DNA of 64,000 nt from Pseudomonas rhizosphaerae (GTDB taxonomy: Bacteria; Pseudomonadota; Gammaproteobacteria; Pseudomonadales; Pseudomonadaceae): positions 1,240,001 to 1,304,000 of the forward strand of contig NZ_CP009533.1 of the NCBI RefSeq assembly GCF_000761155.1. Reading direction: 5' to 3'. The notes beneath the pieces were generated by a model that was given only the letters and a program-made list of their open reading frames with translations, had not been told where the DNA came from and ran no database searches. Below are positions 2,937 through 10,373 of the stretch, one piece after another. Position 1 is the stretch's first letter, and every line of letters starts with the position of its first letter. The position numbers and the translations under genes are program-made.

Positions 2937-3074
2937 AAGGGCGTTTGAAACCCAATGGTAGTTGCCTGGTTCACTCAGTCATCGCCCACTATTAATAGAG
3001 GGGTCATAAGCCGGAGCGCGGCTATACGGCCATGCACCCGTTTCGATCCATCGCAGACTCCACCAGGCCGCTGC

Positions 3075-3181: not shown

Positions 3182-3198
3182 TTGGCGCAGGTATTGCA
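3182..3198 (+). promoter_or_regulatory. Sigma-54 promoter of the nitrate reductase gene
   Basis: TTGGCGCAGGTATTGCA carries the GG (3184-3185) and GC (3196-3197) doublets exactly ten bases apart, fitting TGGCRC-N5-TTGCW. Transcription would start near 3209, giving a leader of about 117 bases before the ATG. Nitrogen-controlled sigma-54 transcription is what is expected for assimilatory nitrate reduction. Confidence 0.65.
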
Positions 3199-3208
3199 AG
3201 TACACGCC

Positions 3209-3302
3209 TACATAACGCAATCGATGCCGATTGCCCCCCACGACGACGGTGCCGTGCTGCCCGCTCTGATGAGCGAAGGGAGCCGGCGCCGTTTTTCGTT
3301 TT
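3209..3302 (+). promoter_or_regulatory. nasA leader: hairpins followed by attenuator-like terminator
   Basis: Just after the predicted start site is a perfect six-pair hairpin, GCAATC (3217-3222) with GATTGC (3229-3234). Next comes a possible hairpin 3239-3256 with hexaloop ACGGTG (A1, G4) and a two-base bulge. A long terminator-like stem then pairs CGGTGCCG (3247-3254) with CGGCGCCG (3284-3291), strengthened by inner pairs around a TGAT loop, and is followed by TTTTTCGTTTT. The second hairpin and the terminator cannot form together, as in ANTAR antitermination. The first loop (GATGCC) has G4 but not A1, so the match is less clean than in the nirB leader. Confidence 0.5.
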
Positions 3303-3325: not shown

Positions 3326-6300
3326 ATGACCCGCACTTCAGTCCGTAGCGTGTGCCCCTACTGCGGCGTTGGCTGCGGGATCGTCATGACCGTCGAGAAC
3401 GATCGCGTGGTCAAGGTCAGCGGCGACAAGCAGCACCCGGCCAACGCCGGGCGCCTGTGCACAAAGGGCAGTACCTGTGCCCAGCCCCTGAGCGATCCTG
3501 GCCGTATGCAACAGGCCTACCTGCGCGAGGGCCGCAACCACGAGCCCGTACAGTCGAGCATGGACGCTGCCATCGTCGCCGCCGGCAGCCGCTTGCGGCA
3601 GATCCTCGATGAGCATGGCCCGGATGCACTGGCCTTCTACGTCTCCGGGCAGATGTCGCTGGAAGCCCAGTACCTGATCAACAAGCTCGCCAAGGGTTAC
3701 GTGCGCACGCGGCACATCGAGTCCAACTCGCGGCTGTGCATGGCCAGCGCCGGCAGTGGCTACAAGCTGTCGTTGGGCGCCGACGGCCCACCCGGTTCGT
3801 ACGATGATTTCGAGCAGGCCGAGGTGTTTCTGGTGATCGGCGCCAACATGGCCGACTGTCATCCGATCCTGTTCCTGCGCCTGCTCGATCGCCTCAAGGC
3901 AGGTGCTCGGTTGATCGTGGTCGACCCGCGGCGCAACGCCACCGCCGACAAGGCCGACCTGTTTCTGCAGATCAAACCCGGCACCGACCTGGCGCTGCTC
4001 AACGGCCTGCTGCACCTGCTGCATGCGAACGGCGCAACCGACGCCGCGTTCATCGCCGCGCACACCGAGGGTTGGGAGGAGCTGCCAGCGTTTCTGGCCG
4101 ACTACACCCCGGCTCGCGTGGCAGAAATCACCGGCCTCGAGGAATACGCCATTTGCCAGGCCGCGCAGTGGCTCGGCGGCGCCGCGAACTGGATGAGCTG
4201 CTGGACCATGGGGCTCAACCAGAGCATCCAGGGCACCTGGAACACCAATGCGCTGTGCAACCTGCACCTGGCCACCGGTGCCATCTGCCGTCCAGGCAGC
4301 GGGCCGTTTTCCCTGACCGGCCAGCCCAATGCGATGGGTGGGCGTGAAATGGGCTACATGGGTCCTGGCCTGCCCGGCCAGCGCTCGCTACTGGTGGCGG
4401 CCGATCGCGCCCATGTCGAAGCCCTGTGGGGCATTGCTCCTGGCAGCCTGCGTGAAGACGGCAACGCCGGCACCGTCGACCTGTTCCGGCAGATGGGCGA
4501 GGGCGCGATCAAGGCCTGCTGGATCATCTGCACCAACCCCGTGGCCAGCGTTGCCAACCGCCAGCAGGTGATCGATGGCCTGCATGCGGCCGAACTGGTC
4601 ATCACTCAGGACGCCTTTCTCGATACCGAAACCAACCGTTACGCCGACGTGCTGCTGCCTGCCGCGCTGTGGGCCGAGGGCGAAGGCGTGATGATCAACT
4701 CCGAGCGCAATATGACCTTGATGCCCAAGGCCGTAAATGCGCCGGGGCAGGCCTTGCCGGACTGGCAGATCATCGCTCGGGTGGCCTGCGCCATGGGCTT
4801 TCCCGAGGGCTTCGACTACACCAGCGCCGAGCAGGTCTATCAAGAGCTGCAACGCTTCGACAACCCCCAGAGTGGCTACGACCTCCGCGGCGCTGGCTAC
4901 GCGCAATTGCGCGAGCAGCCGCGCCAGTGGCCGGCGGCGCCTGGGCAGCACGCTGCGCGCAGCCCGATTCGCTACCTGACCGCCGACGGGCCGCGCTTTC
5001 CCACGCCCAGCGGCCGCGCACGGTTTTTCGCCCGTCCACACCTGCCGCCTGCGGACCTGCCCGACGCAGAATTCGCCATGGTGCTCAACACTGGTCGCCT
5101 GCAGCATCAGTGGCACACGCTGACCAAGACCGGCAAGGTCGCCACCTTGAATCGGCTCGACCCCGGCCCCTTCGTGGAGCTTCACCCCGACGACGCCGAG
5201 CGCCTGGGCATCGGCGAGGCCGATCAGGTTCAGATCCGTTCGCGGCGCGGCCGGGCGGTATTGCCAGCACGCATCAGCAGCCGGGTGCGGCCGGGCAATT
5301 GCTTCGCGCCGTTTCACTGGAACGACGTGTACGGCAGCGACCTGGCCATCAATGCCGTGACCAGCGATGCCACCGACCCGCTGTCGCACCAGCCGGCGTT
5401 CAAGTTCGCCGCCGTGGCGCTGCAACGCGTCGGCTCGCCGAAAATCGCCCTGCAGAACCTCGACCTCGAGGTGCCCGATGCGCTTGCACAGGTTGACCCG
5501 CAGACGGCAATCCAGGTGCTCTGGGCTTCGCAGACCGGCACCGCGCAAGCCATCGCCGAACGCTGCGCACACACCTTGCGCGAGCGTGGTGCGTCGGTGG
5601 AGCTGCGCGGCATGGACGAGGTCACGTCCGCCCAATTATTGGCTGCGCGTAGCGTGCTGCTGGTGACCAGTACCTTCGGCGATGGCGACGCACCGGACAA
5701 TGCCGCGTGTCTGTGGGCGCAATTGCAGGCCGAACGGATCGAGCCTTGCCCGGACCTGCGCTATGGCGTACTGGCATTGGGCGATTCCAGTTACGGACAG
5801 TTCTGCGGCTTTGCCCGCAAGCTGGACCAACGCCTGAACCAGCTGGGCGGGATGCGTCTGCTCGAACGGGTCGAGTGCGAACCCGATGATCAAGCGTTGG
5901 CCGAGCACTGGATGCAGGCAGTGGGCCTGCTGCTCGCCGGCCCATCCACTGCCCCGATGACAGCGCCCATGACAGCGGCGATAACGCCCGACCCGCCCCT
6001 GTATACGCGCAAACGACCGTGGCTGGCGCGGGTGCTGCACAATCAGGTGCTCAACGCTGCCGGTACCGAGAAGGAAGTACGCCACGTGGTGTTCGACCTC
6101 AAGGACAGCGGCCTGGTGTATGAAGCCGGCGATGCCCTTGGGGTGTGGCCAAGCAACTGCATGAGCCTGGTCGAAGAGCTGCTCGCCTGCCTGGGTCTGG
6201 ACAGCAGCGAGCGGGTGCTGCTCAAGGACCAGGGCGAGCAGCCGCTGGCAGTGGCGTTGCACAAGTACCTCGACATTACCCGGATCACCCCGCAGTGGCT

Positions 6301-7117
6301 GGCATTCCTGGCCGAGCGCTGCGCCGATCCGCTGCTGGCCTCGCTGCTCGAAGCGGACAATGCCAGCCAGCTGCAGCAGTGGTTGTGGGGCAAGCAACTG
6401 ATCGATCTGCTCGAGGCGTTCCCCATTACCCTGACCACGCAGGAATTGCTCGGCCTGCTCAAGCCGCTGCAGCCGCGGTTGTATTCCATCAGTTCCAGCG
6501 CCCGCACCGATCCGCAGCAGGTGCACATCACCTTGTCGACGGTACGCTACCGTTGCAACGAGCGCTTGCGCAGCGGGGTCTGCTCAGGCTTTCTTGCCGA
6601 CCGCTCGGCGGCGGCGCTGGTGCCGATCTTCGTGCACAAGGCCACCCAGTTCCGCGTACCCCGCCAAGCCGATACACCGATGATCATGGTCGGACCGGGT
6701 ACCGGCATCGCGCCGTTTCGCGCCTTCCTTCACGAGCGCCAGGCACTGGGGCACGGCGGCCGCAATTGGCTGCTGTTCGGCGAGCAGCGCGAACACAGCG
6801 ACTTCTACTACCGCGACGAGCTGCACGCCTGGCTGCGCAGTGGGCATCTGCATCGGCTGGACACGGCGTTCTCCCGGGATCAGGCGGAGAAAGTCTACGT
6901 CCAGGACAGGCTGCGCCAGCAGGGTGCCCAGGTCTGGTTGTGGTTGCAGCAAGGGGGGCACTTCTATGTGTGCGGCGATGCCAGCCGCATGGCCAAGGAT
7001 GTCGACGCTGTGCTGCGCGACGTGGTGGCGGAACACGGTGCCATGAGCACGCTGGAGGCCGAGGCCTATCTGGCGCAGTTGAGCCGGGACAAGCGTTATG
7101 TGCGGGATGTGTACTGA
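3326..7117 (+). CDS. nasA: Assimilatory nitrate reductase fused to sulfite-reductase-type flavoprotein
   Basis: Protein of 1263 residues reducing nitrate to nitrite in the cytoplasm. Residues 1 to about 700 are a molybdopterin oxidoreductase: a [4Fe-4S] motif with Cys10, Cys13, Cys17 and Cys45 (VCPYCGVGC ... LCTKG), then the Mo-bis-MGD domains and the C-terminal dinucleotide-binding barrel. From about 728 (LWASQTGTAQ) there is a flavodoxin domain. From about 890 there is a CysJ-like FAD/NADPH reductase, with PRLYSISSS near 1050 and the NADPH loop GPGTGIAPF near 1125. The fusion should let NADPH feed electrons straight to the molybdenum site. The start is ATG 3326 after GAGGAGG; the frame is open upstream to 3032, but the sigma-54 leader lies there. 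nirB and nirD follow with their own promoter. Confidence 0.9.
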   Translation: MTRTSVRSVCPYCGVGCGIVMTVENDRVVKVSGDKQHPANAGRLCTKGSTCAQPLSDPGRMQQAYLREGRNHEPVQSSMDAAIVAAGSRLRQILDEHGPDALAFYVSGQMSLEAQYLINKLAKGYVRTRHIESNSRLCMASAGSGYKLSLGADGPPGSYDDFEQAEVFLVIGANMADCHPILFLRLLDRLKAGARLIVVDPRRNATADKADLFLQIKPGTDLALLNGLLHLLHANGATDAAFIAAHTEGWEELPAFLADYTPARVAEITGLEEYAICQAAQWLGGAANWMSCWTMGLNQSIQGTWNTNALCNLHLATGAICRPGSGPFSLTGQPNAMGGREMGYMGPGLPGQRSLLVAADRAHVEALWGIAPGSLREDGNAGTVDLFRQMGEGAIKACWIICTNPVASVANRQQVIDGLHAAELVITQDAFLDTETNRYADVLLPAALWAEGEGVMINSERNMTLMPKAVNAPGQALPDWQIIARVACAMGFPEGFDYTSAEQVYQELQRFDNPQSGYDLRGAGYAQLREQPRQWPAAPGQHAARSPIRYLTADGPRFPTPSGRARFFARPHLPPADLPDAEFAMVLNTGRLQHQWHTLTKTGKVATLNRLDPGPFVELHPDDAERLGIGEADQVQIRSRRGRAVLPARISSRVRPGNCFAPFHWNDVYGSDLAINAVTSDATDPLSHQPAFKFAAVALQRVGSPKIALQNLDLEVPDALAQVDPQTAIQVLWASQTGTAQAIAERCAHTLRERGASVELRGMDEVTSAQLLAARSVLLVTSTFGDGDAPDNAACLWAQLQAERIEPCPDLRYGVLALGDSSYGQFCGFARKLDQRLNQLGGMRLLERVECEPDDQALAEHWMQAVGLLLAGPSTAPMTAPMTAAITPDPPLYTRKRPWLARVLHNQVLNAAGTEKEVRHVVFDLKDSGLVYEAGDALGVWPSNCMSLVEELLACLGLDSSERVLLKDQGEQPLAVALHKYLDITRITPQWLAFLAERCADPLLASLLEADNASQLQQWLWGKQLIDLLEAFPITLTTQELLGLLKPLQPRLYSISSSARTDPQQVHITLSTVRYRCNERLRSGVCSGFLADRSAAALVPIFVHKATQFRVPRQADTPMIMVGPGTGIAPFRAFLHERQALGHGGRNWLLFGEQREHSDFYYRDELHAWLRSGHLHRLDTAFSRDQAEKVYVQDRLRQQGAQVWLWLQQGGHFYVCGDASRMAKDVDAVLRDVVAEHGAMSTLEAEAYLAQLSRDKRYVRDVY

Positions 7118-7160
7118 AAGGGTGCGGTGTGCACTGGGGTGGGGCTTTTTATCAGGGAGG

Positions 7161-7259: not shown

Positions 7260-7284
7260 CAACTGACACCCCACCCAACAAACC

Positions 7285-7301
7285 CTGGCACGCAACCTGC
7301 T
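7285..7301 (+). promoter_or_regulatory. Sigma-54 promoter of nirBD
   Basis: CTGGCACGCAACCTGCT matches the -24/-12 consensus: TGGCACG is exact, the GG (7287-7288) and GC (7299-7300) doublets are ten bases apart, and only one base of TTGC differs. The start site would be about 7312, some nine bases before the first leader hairpin, so promoter and leader fit together precisely. Confidence 0.7.
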
Positions 7302-7320
7302 TCCACCCAGACACGTCCCC

Positions 7321-7383
7321 GGTGCTCAACGACGATCACCCCACCGGACACCCACATTTCGACGATCAGGCAAAGGCGCCTGG
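7321..7383 (+). promoter_or_regulatory. ANTAR-type two-hairpin antitermination element in nirB leader
   Basis: Hairpin P1 is GGTGCTC (7321-7327), loop AACGAC (7328-7333), GATCACC (7334-7340), with one C-U mismatch. Hairpin P2 is TCAGGC (7366-7371), loop AAAGGC (7372-7377), GCCTGG (7378-7383). Both are hexaloops with A at position 1 and G at position 4, the signature bound by ANTAR-domain antiterminators such as NasT/NasR. The 3' arm of P2 is part of the 5' arm of the terminator at 7377-7409, so the two structures exclude each other. The regulator gene is not in the window. Confidence 0.75.
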
Positions 7384-7409
7384 AGCATTCGCTCCAGGCG
7401 TTTTTTTTT
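7377..7409 (+). terminator. Leader attenuator terminator upstream of nirB
   Basis: A perfect ten-pair stem CGCCTGGAGC (7377-7386) / GCTCCAGGCG (7391-7400) has an ATTC loop and nine Ts (7401-7409). It sits 40 bases before the nirB start and 260 bases after the nasA stop, downstream of the nirB promoter. It is therefore best read as a conditional leader terminator rather than the end of nasA. Confidence 0.8.
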
Positions 7410-7449
7410 GCCCGATGGTCAAGACACCGTGACTCGCTTGGAGATACCT

Positions 7450-10011
7450 ATGAATGCGCTCGTGAACCTCAGGCCCCGGCAGAAACTCATCGTCGTCGGC
7501 AACGGCATGGTGGGGCATCACTGTGTCGAGCAGTTGATCGAGCGCAACGCGGTCGATCGCTACGAGATCCACGTCTTCGGCGAAGAACGTCAACGTGCCT
7601 ACGACCGGGTTCACCTGTCCGAATACTTCGGCGGCTCGTGCGCCGAAACCCTGGCCTTGGGCGACGCCCAGCTGTATGGCAAGCACGGCGTCACCCTGCA
7701 CCTGGGCCAGCCGGTGATCGAGATCGACCGCCAGGCCCGCGAAGTGGTAACCACCACCGGGCGGCATGCCTACGATGTGCTGGTGCTGGCCACCGGCTCG
7801 TTTCCGTTCGTGCCGCCGATTCCGGGCTGTGAGGGCAACGCGCGGCTGGTCTATCGCACCCTGGATGATCTGGACGCGATCCGCGCTGCGGCGGTTGGGG
7901 CGCGCCGTGGTGTGGTGGTCGGCGGCGGACTGTTGGGCCTGGAAGCGGCCAACGCTCTGAAGTCGCTGGGGCTTGAGGCCCACGTGGTCGAGTTCGCCCC
8001 GCGGCTGATGCCGGTGCAACTGGACGCCGATGGCGGCGCGGCCCTGCGTGCTCGCATCGAAGCCTTGGGCGTGGGCGTGCACACCTCGCGCGCCACTCAG
8101 AACGTAGAGGCCGGCGAGACTCATCGCTACCGGATGAACTTCGACGGCGGCGAGTTTCTGGAAACCGACCTGATCGTGTTTTCCGCCGGCATTCGCCCTC
8201 AGGATGCATTGGGTCGCGCCTGTGGGCTGGAAATTGCCGCCCGCGGCGGCATCGTCATCGACCCGCACTGCCGCAGCAGCGACCCGGCGGTGTATGCGAT
8301 CGGTGAATGCGCCTCCTGGAACGGCAGCATCTTCGGTCTGGTGGCGCCGGGCTACAGCATGGCTCGCAACGTCGCCTGCGAACTGGCAGGCGAGGCACCG
8401 GTGGCGTTCAGTGGTGCCGACATGTCTACCAAGCTCAAGCTGCTGGGCGTCGACGTGGGTTCCATCGGCGATGCCCATGCCAGCACGCCGGGGGCCAAGA
8501 GCTACCGCTTCATCGACGAAGCCAATGCCAGCTACCGGCGCCTGGTGGTGGACGCCACCGGCACTCAGGTACTGGGCGCCGTGCTGGTCGGCGACAACAG
8601 CTACTACGACACCCTGCTGCAATACGCGCAGAACGGCATCGCCTTGCCAGCCGACCCCTCGACGTTGATCCTGCCGCTGTCCGACGGCGCACCGGTTCTC
8701 GGCGCCGATGCGTTGCCCGACACGGCCATGATCTGCTCCTGCCACAACGTCAGCAAAGGCGCGATCTGTTCCGCCGTCGACGGCGGTTGCGGCGACCTCT
8801 CGGCACTCAAGTCGCAGACCAAGGCCTGCACCGGCTGTGGCGGCTGCGCGGCGCTGCTCAAGCAGGTGTTCGAGCACGAGTTGACGGCCCGTGGCGTCAG
8901 CGTCGACAAGAGCCTGTGTGAACACTTCGCCTACACCCGCGCTGAGCTGTACGCGCTGGCCCGTGTCGAAGGCATCGCCAGCTTCGAGGACATGCTCGCC
9001 CGCCACGGACGCGGTGCCGTGGGCTGCGACGTGTGCAAGCCCACCGTCGGCAACATCCTCGCCTCGTGCTGGAACCAGCCGATCATGGACCCTTCGCTGG
9101 TGCCGCTGCAGGACACCAACGACACCTTCATGGCCAACATGCAGAAGAACGGCACCTACTCGGTGGTGCCGCGCATTCCCGGCGGTGAGATCACCCCGGA
9201 CAAGCTCATCGCCATCGGCGTGGTGGCGAAGAAATACGACCTCTACACCAAGATCACCGGTGGCCAGCGCATCGACCTGTTCGGCGCGCAGTTGCACGAG
9301 CTGCCGGAGATCTGGAGCGAACTGATCGAAGCGGGCTTCGAAACCGGGCATGCCTACGGCAAGTCGACCCGCACCGTGAAGTCCTGCGTGGGCAGCACCT
9401 GGTGTCGTTACGGCGTGCAGGACAGCGTGGCCATGGCCCTGCGCATCGAGGATCGCTACAAGGGCTTGCGTTCGCCGCACAAGCTCAAGTTCGCCGTCTC
9501 GGGTTGCACCCGCGAGTGCGCCGAGGCGCAGAGCAAGGACATCGGCGTGATCGCTACGGAAAAGGGCTGGAACCTGTACGTGTGCGGCAACGGCGGCATG
9601 CGTCCGCGCCACGCCGAGCTGTTCGCCATCGACCTGAACGACGAACAGTTGATCCGCTACATCGACCGCATCCTGATGTTCTACATCCGTACCGCCGACA
9701 AGCTGCAGCGCACCTCGGTGTGGCGCGAAAACCTGGAAGGCGGCCTGGAATTCCTCAAGCAGGTGGTGCTGGAAGACAGCTTAGGTTTGGGCGCCGAGCT
9801 CGAAGCGCAGATGCAGCGGGTGGTCGATCACTATGAATGCGAATGGGCCAACGCCCTGAAGGATCCGGAAAAGCTCAAGCGCTTCCGCACCTTCGTCAAC
9901 GACAAGCGCGCGGACCCTGGCGTGCAGTTCGTCAAGGAACGCGGCCAGCGTCGCCCCGCCCAGGCCGGCGATGCGCTGGTAATGATCCCGGTAGTCGAGG
10001 AGGTGGTGTGA
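7450..10011 (+). CDS. nirB: Assimilatory nitrite reductase (NAD(P)H), large subunit
   Basis: Protein of 853 residues catalysing six-electron reduction of nitrite to ammonium. It begins with an FAD/NAD(P)H domain (IVVGNGMVG at about 14-22), with a second dinucleotide fold near 155. A BFD-like [2Fe-2S] domain follows, with CSC near 429-431 and CTGCGGC near 461. The C-terminal siroheme domain carries CVGSTWC (about 645) and CTREC (about 686), the four cysteines of the coupled [4Fe-4S]-siroheme site. The start is ATG 7450, with GGAG six bases upstream; the frame is open back to 7408, but that segment is terminator sequence. The last base of its stop is the first base of nirD. Confidence 0.93.
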   Translation: MNALVNLRPRQKLIVVGNGMVGHHCVEQLIERNAVDRYEIHVFGEERQRAYDRVHLSEYFGGSCAETLALGDAQLYGKHGVTLHLGQPVIEIDRQAREVVTTTGRHAYDVLVLATGSFPFVPPIPGCEGNARLVYRTLDDLDAIRAAAVGARRGVVVGGGLLGLEAANALKSLGLEAHVVEFAPRLMPVQLDADGGAALRARIEALGVGVHTSRATQNVEAGETHRYRMNFDGGEFLETDLIVFSAGIRPQDALGRACGLEIAARGGIVIDPHCRSSDPAVYAIGECASWNGSIFGLVAPGYSMARNVACELAGEAPVAFSGADMSTKLKLLGVDVGSIGDAHASTPGAKSYRFIDEANASYRRLVVDATGTQVLGAVLVGDNSYYDTLLQYAQNGIALPADPSTLILPLSDGAPVLGADALPDTAMICSCHNVSKGAICSAVDGGCGDLSALKSQTKACTGCGGCAALLKQVFEHELTARGVSVDKSLCEHFAYTRAELYALARVEGIASFEDMLARHGRGAVGCDVCKPTVGNILASCWNQPIMDPSLVPLQDTNDTFMANMQKNGTYSVVPRIPGGEITPDKLIAIGVVAKKYDLYTKITGGQRIDLFGAQLHELPEIWSELIEAGFETGHAYGKSTRTVKSCVGSTWCRYGVQDSVAMALRIEDRYKGLRSPHKLKFAVSGCTRECAEAQSKDIGVIATEKGWNLYVCGNGGMRPRHAELFAIDLNDEQLIRYIDRILMFYIRTADKLQRTSVWRENLEGGLEFLKQVVLEDSLGLGAELEAQMQRVVDHYECEWANALKDPEKLKRFRTFVNDKRADPGVQFVKERGQRRPAQAGDALVMIPVVEEVV

Positions 10012-10373
10012 TGCAGGCAGCCAACGCAGTGCAAGCGATGACCTGGCAAGCGGTGTGCGATCAGTCTGATCTGATTCCCAACTCCGGTGTGGTGGTGTGG
10101 CTGGACGGCGACCAGGTGGCGTTGTTCTACCTACCCGAGGCGGGCGAGGGCAGGGCGCTGCACGCCATCGACAACCACGATCCGCGCTCGGGCGCCAACG
10201 TGCTGGGACGCGGGATCGTCGGCTACCTGCAGGGAGAGTTGGTGGTGGCGGCGCCGCTGTACAAGCAGCATTACTGCTTCAGCGACGGGCGCTGCCTGGA
10301 GGCGCCGGATCAGCATGTCAGGGTCTGGCCGGTGCGCTTGAATGGGGATCGCGTGGAGATTGGCAGATTGTAG
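10011..10373 (+). CDS. nirD: Assimilatory nitrite reductase small subunit
   Basis: Protein of 120 residues with a Rieske-like fold but without the Cys/His cluster ligands, as is normal for NirD. The segment WLDGDQVALFYLP and later the HAIDNHDPRSGANVL and FSDGRCLEAPD stretches match the family. It completes the NirBD enzyme with the overlapping upstream gene; its start ATG 10011 lies one base into the nirB stop and GAGGAGG precedes it. It is translationally coupled and regulated with nirB. A REP pair follows 14 bases after the stop. Confidence 0.9.
   Translation: MQAANAVQAMTWQAVCDQSDLIPNSGVVVWLDGDQVALFYLPEAGEGRALHAIDNHDPRSGANVLGRGIVGYLQGELVVAAPLYKQHYCFSDGRCLEAPDQHVRVWPVRLNGDRVEIGRL

Follow-up and report, generated by a model that had tools for sequence, protein, structure and literature searches.

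A 64,000-nucleotide stretch of the Pseudomonas rhizosphaerae genome (contig NZ_CP009533.1, positions 1,240,001 to 1,304,000; hereafter the window) carries nirBD, and the subject of this analysis is the leader in front of nirB, which consists of a sigma-54-type promoter, two hexaloop hairpins and a terminator, together with the ANTAR protein that may read it. The features of this leader and of the genes behind it are given below in window positions, with loops in square brackets.

7285–7301, plus strand: sigma-54 (-24/-12) promoter of nirBD, CTGGCACGCAACCTGCT, read directly
7321–7340, plus strand: P1 hairpin, GGTGCTC[AACGAC]GATCACC, standing on a lower helix GTCC/GGAC
7366–7383, plus strand: P2 hairpin, TCAGGC[AAAGGC]GCCTGG, six pairs including one G.U, overlapping the 5' arm of the terminator
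7377–7409, plus strand: intrinsic terminator, ten pairs at 7377–7400 with an ATTC loop, then nine Ts at 7401–7409
7450–10011, plus strand: nirB, nitrite reductase large subunit, from ATG 7450, with a TIGR02374 match above cut-off
9837–10373, plus strand: reading frame holding nirD

Because the Rieske_2 / nirD_assim_sml match in the last frame spans residues 69–175, the true nirD start lies inside it.

Direct reading of the sequence confirms the coordinates of the original prediction for the sigma-54 promoter, the hexaloops AACGAC and AAAGGC and the ten-pair, nine-T terminator that overlaps the second hairpin. The promoter has its GG and GC elements at the correct spacing, is conserved (a sigma-54-like site was scored in the 79 leaders described below) and departs from the consensus TGGCACGN4TTGCW at a single position, the first T of the -12 element, which is a C here. 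The sigma-54 pattern YTGGCACGNNNNYTGCW matches 14 times in the 4.685 Mb genome versus 3 times with a reversed-pattern control; three exact matches (L014–L016) sit within ~7 kb of one another, at genome 2679034–2686101. Both hexaloops carry A at position 1 and G at position 4, as in dual-hexaloop ANTAR targets, and P2 (7366–7383) and the terminator stem (7377–7400) have bases in common, making their pairing mutually exclusive. The terminator ends 40 nt upstream of nirB, and the RNA fold of 7310–7412 has a z-score of -4.95, with 0 of 200 shuffles equally stable.

The leader is strongly conserved. We collected NirB loci from 80 named genome contigs, which are the best 80 of 589 confirmed relatives (the nearest 97% identical; P. 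baltica is included), and dropped two (L041, L083) whose contigs end before the leader, leaving 78 relatives plus the window, or 79 leaders. A P2 loop AAAGGC or AAAGAC with a downstream terminator is present in all 79. The covariation that had been proposed as a check on the leader is seen in P1, where double-change cells number 34, while 500 partner shuffles average 13.6 and never exceed 25. This count, of a kind that kinship inflates, covers 40 distinct P1 sequences taken from leaders matching a fixed inner pattern (67 of 79). The lower helix under P1 has at least four Watson-Crick pairs in 28/28 short leaders (a set that excludes duplicates and five leaders without P1 or with odd spacing), changes in step across leaders (GTCC/GGAC, GTTC/GAAC, GCCC/GGGC) and has a mean longest length of 4.43, a value that none of 500 partner shuffles reaches (highest 4.21). 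Long nirB leaders, e.g., L064, L074, L092 and L096, show three successive A1/G4 hexaloop hairpins, the extra one lying between P1 and P2, and such three-hexaloop leaders occur in many other Pseudomonas and Stutzerimonas genomes.

The window's nirB leader is the NalA leader that has already been described: the review PMC12830290, which cites Romeo 2012 and Nie 2024, reports a nirB leader NalA with NasT, sigma-54 and NtrC for P. aeruginosa and P. putida. As given there, NalA with NasS-NasT shares with the present leader the sigma-54 promoter, NtrC, the leader terminator, ANTAR antitermination and the nirBD target; it differs in its regulator, the candidate here being a one-component NIT-ANTAR protein in place of a NasT-like one. 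The P. rhizosphaerae genome is a single contig, 100% complete by a completeness estimate, and its two matches to the Pfam ANTAR profile are a protein of AmiR type and a NIT-ANTAR protein. A sigma-54 plus ANTAR attenuator before nirBD, as originally predicted, is thus borne out by its elements, fold and conservation, but the NasT-type regulator assigned to it is not, as neither of these two proteins is NasT-like. The AmiR-type protein (AmiR_N; L002, genome ~338–341 kb) has genes for a Peripla_BP_5 protein and for an iron-type alcohol dehydrogenase next to its own. The NIT-ANTAR protein has 471 residues, holds the only NIT match of the genome and aligns over both domains with Klebsiella oxytoca NasR (4akk; E 1.7e-47), which makes it a NIT sensor fused to ANTAR and related to NasR. 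Its gene lies at genome 1.631 Mb, 385 kb from nirB, and upstream of nrtABC, as identified by matches to nitrate ATP-binding cassette (ABC) permease and ATPase families and a twin-arginine translocation (TAT)-type binding protein. The two nearest relatives (L021/G001 and L022/G002) likewise have only a NIT-ANTAR and an AmiR-like match. These comparisons of sequence suggest that the NIT-ANTAR (NasR-type) protein is the likely regulator of the nirB leader.

Two NtrC-like sites are predicted 20 bases apart upstream of the nirB promoter, scored against an NtrC consensus:

7110–7126, plus strand: predicted NtrC-like site TGTACTGAAAGGGTGCG, which overlaps the stop codon of nasA and fits 10 of the 13 specified positions
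7130–7146, plus strand: predicted NtrC-like site TGCACTGGGGTGGGGCT, 11 of 13 specified positions

The best such site reaches at least 10/13 upstream of 66 of 79 nirB leaders, versus 9 of 79 regions shuffled once each. Inverted repeats (7152–7178/7240–7266 and, nested within, 7193–7207/7225–7239) sit between nasA and the nirB promoter and resemble Pseudomonas repetitive extragenic palindromic (REP) elements. Because an ANTAR-type attenuator stands behind a sigma-54 promoter with NtrC-like sites upstream, dual control of nirBD by nitrogen limitation and nitrate/nitrite would be the natural prediction, and a scheme of this kind has been published for P. aeruginosa and P. putida (PMC12830290). We consider it quite probable that the nirB leader is a nitrate/nitrite-responsive attenuator, driven by sigma-54 and NtrC and read by the NIT-ANTAR protein. 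NtrC would activate sigma-54 RNA polymerase under nitrogen limitation, with transcription predicted to start near 7312, as placed from the promoter position. Without nitrate or nitrite the 7377–7400 terminator would fold and transcription would end before nirB; with nitrate or nitrite the NIT-ANTAR protein would bind the hexaloop(s), and P2, held closed, would occupy bases of the terminator 5' arm, so that polymerase would read into nirBD.

This scheme follows what is known of related regulators. According to PMC7496416, which analyses NIT-ANTAR proteins as a class, nitrate or nitrite must be present for Klebsiella NasR to bind such RNA, and its affinity is about 1 µM for P1P2 and 12 µM for P2 alone, so that full affinity needs two hexaloops. 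The K. oxytoca NasR/nasF leader resembles the present system in its NIT-ANTAR protein, in having a leader between the regulator gene and the adjacent nitrate transport genes, and in its A1/G4 hexaloops with a terminator; it differs in that the promoters here are of sigma-54 type, that nasA, nirBD and nrtABC form separate units, and that the nrtA leaders mostly have one hexaloop. EutV leaders also have two hexaloops, the second overlapping a terminator (PMC3369931 and PMC8934654), but answer to a two-component regulator and an ethanolamine signal. We found no Pseudomonas NIT-ANTAR regulon in print in the open-licence literature searched.

Several observations weigh against control by the NIT-ANTAR protein. 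The Pfam ANTAR profile, which gave no NasT-like match in the single-contig genome, would overlook a NasT of strongly diverged sequence; the nirB P1 of the window forms 6 of 7 pairs, the third one counted from the loop being a C.U mismatch (7 of 7 in the nearest relatives, L021 and L022); covariation speaks for P1 only, as P2 hardly varies in structure; and the AmiR-type protein might in principle cross-act on the leader. Control by NasS-NasT, as in P. putida and P. aeruginosa, would fit a leader plan that is the same in NasT genomes, and in P. putida deletion of NasT abolishes nitrate use (PMC7261876); given the outcome of the ANTAR search here and in the nearest relatives, we regard such control as highly improbable. 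Action of the AmiR-type protein on the nirB leader draws on its being the only other ANTAR match in the genome, but its gene adjoins that of the Peripla_BP_5 binding protein, as in amidase systems, and an AmiR-like match is found in only G001 and G002 among eight named NIT-only relatives, which makes this explanation extremely unlikely. Because the leader is conserved and the regulator is apparently different, the leader alone does not reveal its reader protein.

The NIT-ANTAR protein would also act on two further leaders, one before nasA in the window and a third before nrtABC elsewhere in the genome:

3182–3198, plus strand: sigma-54-like promoter of nasA, TTGGCGCAGGTATTGCA, its aligned position kept in relatives
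3217–3234, plus strand: nasA leader P1, GCAATC[GATGCC]GATTGC, with A1 changed to G
3239–3256, plus strand: nasA leader P2, CACGAC[GACGGT]GCCGTG, with A1 changed to G
3246–3296, plus strand: nasA leader terminator, ACGGTGCCG...CGGCGCCGT followed by a T run, fold z -7.66
3326–7117, plus strand: nasA, a fused nitrate reductase-flavodoxin-reductase, likely starting at ATG 3326 behind GAGGAGGG
genome 1631200–1631327 (L004:9201–9328), minus strand: nrtABC leader, between the NIT-ANTAR gene and nrtABC

The nasA leader (3182–3296) is a second, degenerate version of the sigma-54, hexaloop and terminator arrangement, in which both loops begin with G and depart from the A1/G4 rule. A nasA start at 3032 was rejected, since it makes the frame too long and ATG 3326 with its upstream GAGGAGGG fits the conserved start. 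In the P1 region RNAfold prefers a seven-pair tetraloop form. The P2 loop is AACGGT in L021 and L022 and AAAGGC in L023, and NasT-class relatives have nasA loops AACGNN/AAAGGC. Either the protein accepts G at position 1, or antitermination of nasA is inefficient in this strain. The nasA changes, and the loss of P1 in some NIT-ANTAR lineages, would favour the view that in this lineage the nirB leader is vestigial or works as a simple attenuator with no controlling protein; we think this very unlikely, as the P1 and P2 loops of nirB are intact in the window clade and a bare ten-pair, nine-T terminator would for the most part shut off a step essential to nitrate use.

The nrtABC leader has a sigma-54 site TTGGCACGCAATCTGCT, one clear A1/G4 hexaloop, TGGAC[AACGGT]GTCCA, and, with its 5' arm beginning inside that hexaloop, a terminator (fold z -5.81). 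Across the NIT-ANTAR loci, 17 of 27 gave an nrtA leader by its P2 motif, so that P2 is present by construction, and 2 of these 17 (G828, G840) have a candidate P1, cctggc[AAGGAG]gcaggc. A P2-plus-T-run pattern run over the P. rhizosphaerae genome finds the nrtA leader only (six overlapping matches at one place; control 1) and is no census of leaders, because it cannot accommodate the nirB spacing or the divergent nasA loop. A custom hexaloop-plus-terminator scan gave 0.0 matches per shuffled window (20 shuffles), yet it picked up the nrtA leader only, and is no evidence for the nirB leader because the nirB and nasA leaders of the real window escaped it.

Of 398 genus genomes, an even draw, 21 have a NIT-ANTAR match (E 1e-30 or better), the window's own genome among them, and the ANTAR search was then run on these 21 and on 20 others; here NasT-like denotes the shape of the ANTAR match (usually profile 5–54; 4–54 in Stutzerimonas) and the frame length, and not a NasT-specific model. 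Fifteen of the 21 are without a NasT-like match (of the genomes in this state, G514 and G843 carry further ANTAR proteins of another kind) and four have both; G526 has a NasT-like match and a NIT-ANTAR match without an ANTAR hit, and G789 has no ANTAR match. Among the 20 others, 19 have a NasT-like match and G449 has none. All 78 named genomes have an ANTAR match; NIT was searched in 50 of them, with 21 positive and 17 of those in one frame with ANTAR, and for the remaining 28 the NasT class was assigned on the ANTAR match alone.

A nirB P1 was counted as a hairpin before P2 with an A1/G4 loop, a C-G closing pair and at least 4/5 inner pairs, with one row per distinct spacer and leaving aside duplicate genomes and six NirB relatives whose identity is about 36–37%. 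By this rule P1 is present in 66/66 NasT-class spacers (shuffle expectation 3.9), in line with the hexaloop conservation on which the leader had been predicted to stand or fall, and in 11/11 with both proteins (expectation 1.0), compared with 9/19 where NIT-ANTAR occurs without a NasT-like protein (expectation 0.5). The window is among the nine; under a strict rule its own P1 fails too, owing to its mismatch. The association of P1 loss with regulator class has a Fisher p of 8e-9, a value that ignores kinship, and the ten losses fall in about three groups, judged by leader similarity and not by a tree: L058, G804, G802, G828, G840, G593 and G447 are alike, L025 goes with L027, and L099 stands apart. 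For nasA, leaders were found by their P2 motif, so that P2 is present by construction and the P1 count is independent: P1 occurs in 25/31 NasT-class leaders, 1/1 with both and 1/7 NIT-only, and 4/7 NIT-only leaders have a P1 loop GATGCC or GACGCA with A1 changed to G. This count depends on the rule, because the six failing NasT-class leaders all keep C[AACGTC]G and the outer pairs and have two inner mismatches.

The first hexaloop is thus often lost where NIT-ANTAR stands without a NasT-like protein. We tentatively propose that in several Pseudomonas lineages a one-component NIT-ANTAR protein may have replaced NasS-NasT on inherited leaders, P1 then becoming dispensable and the leaders eroding to a single P2, with the window clade as an intermediate (dual-loop nirB, A1-to-G nasA, single-loop nrtA). 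That P1 loss in NIT-ANTAR genomes instead reflects shared ancestry, and no change of regulator, is a serious possibility, given that the ten P1-less leaders form so few groups and that the Fisher value takes no account of them; the L025/L027 pair, which has lost P1 at both nirB and nasA, the A1-to-G change of nasA in the window clade and in G514, and the nrtA leaders of several lineages without P1 argue for a change of regulator.

A search of the whole window against Rfam at gathering cut-offs returns no match. Sub-threshold matches to ar14 (window 7280–7406; 26.4 bits against a cut-off of 58.8, E 0.0019, with many broken pairs and resting mainly on the terminator) and to Esr41, P11 (16 bits) and others were not accepted as family members, those to ar14 and P11 probably being driven by the terminator; Pseudomonas P11 may be related to nirB leaders. 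RF03032, the narK RNA, gives 18.8 bits against the window's nirB leader (E 0.12; gathering cut-off 43.2) and has no match at gathering level in the P. rhizosphaerae genome, and it differs from the leader in spacing. Its consensus contains GGCAC-N5-UUGCU, a hairpin loop AACGGC and CGAC[AAAGAC]GUCG, with the cmscan structure line pairing P1 only. In 369 genomes of the class it gives 16 matches (L171–L186) in 15 genomes, two of which pass the cut-off. By eye, 14 of the 16 have hexaloop hairpin(s) and a terminator before narK-, nrtA-, nasA-, nirB-like or related genes (among them L180, with a weak second hairpin, and L183, before an outer-membrane-like protein), and L181 and L185 resemble coding sequence; a sigma-54-like site is visible at nine matches. 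To judge from these features, RF03032 reads as a sigma-54 promoter plus ANTAR hexaloop target module, a link between narK RNA and ANTAR that we did not find in print in the literature searched.

The nirB leader is functional-looking and represents real, known biology whose regulator assignment needs correcting; the apparent link of P1 loss to the regulator and the single-loop nrtA leaders are new and worth a test. Models in which an ANTAR dimer engages two loops or one loop at a time differ on the need for the second loop, and single- and dual-loop leaders in one genome offer a natural way to ask whether it is required. If these assignments are true, the natural single-hexaloop attenuators would test whether an ANTAR dimer needs one loop or two, and RF03032, a family described by its downstream gene, would gain a mechanism in the form of a promoter, a hexaloop pair and a terminator.

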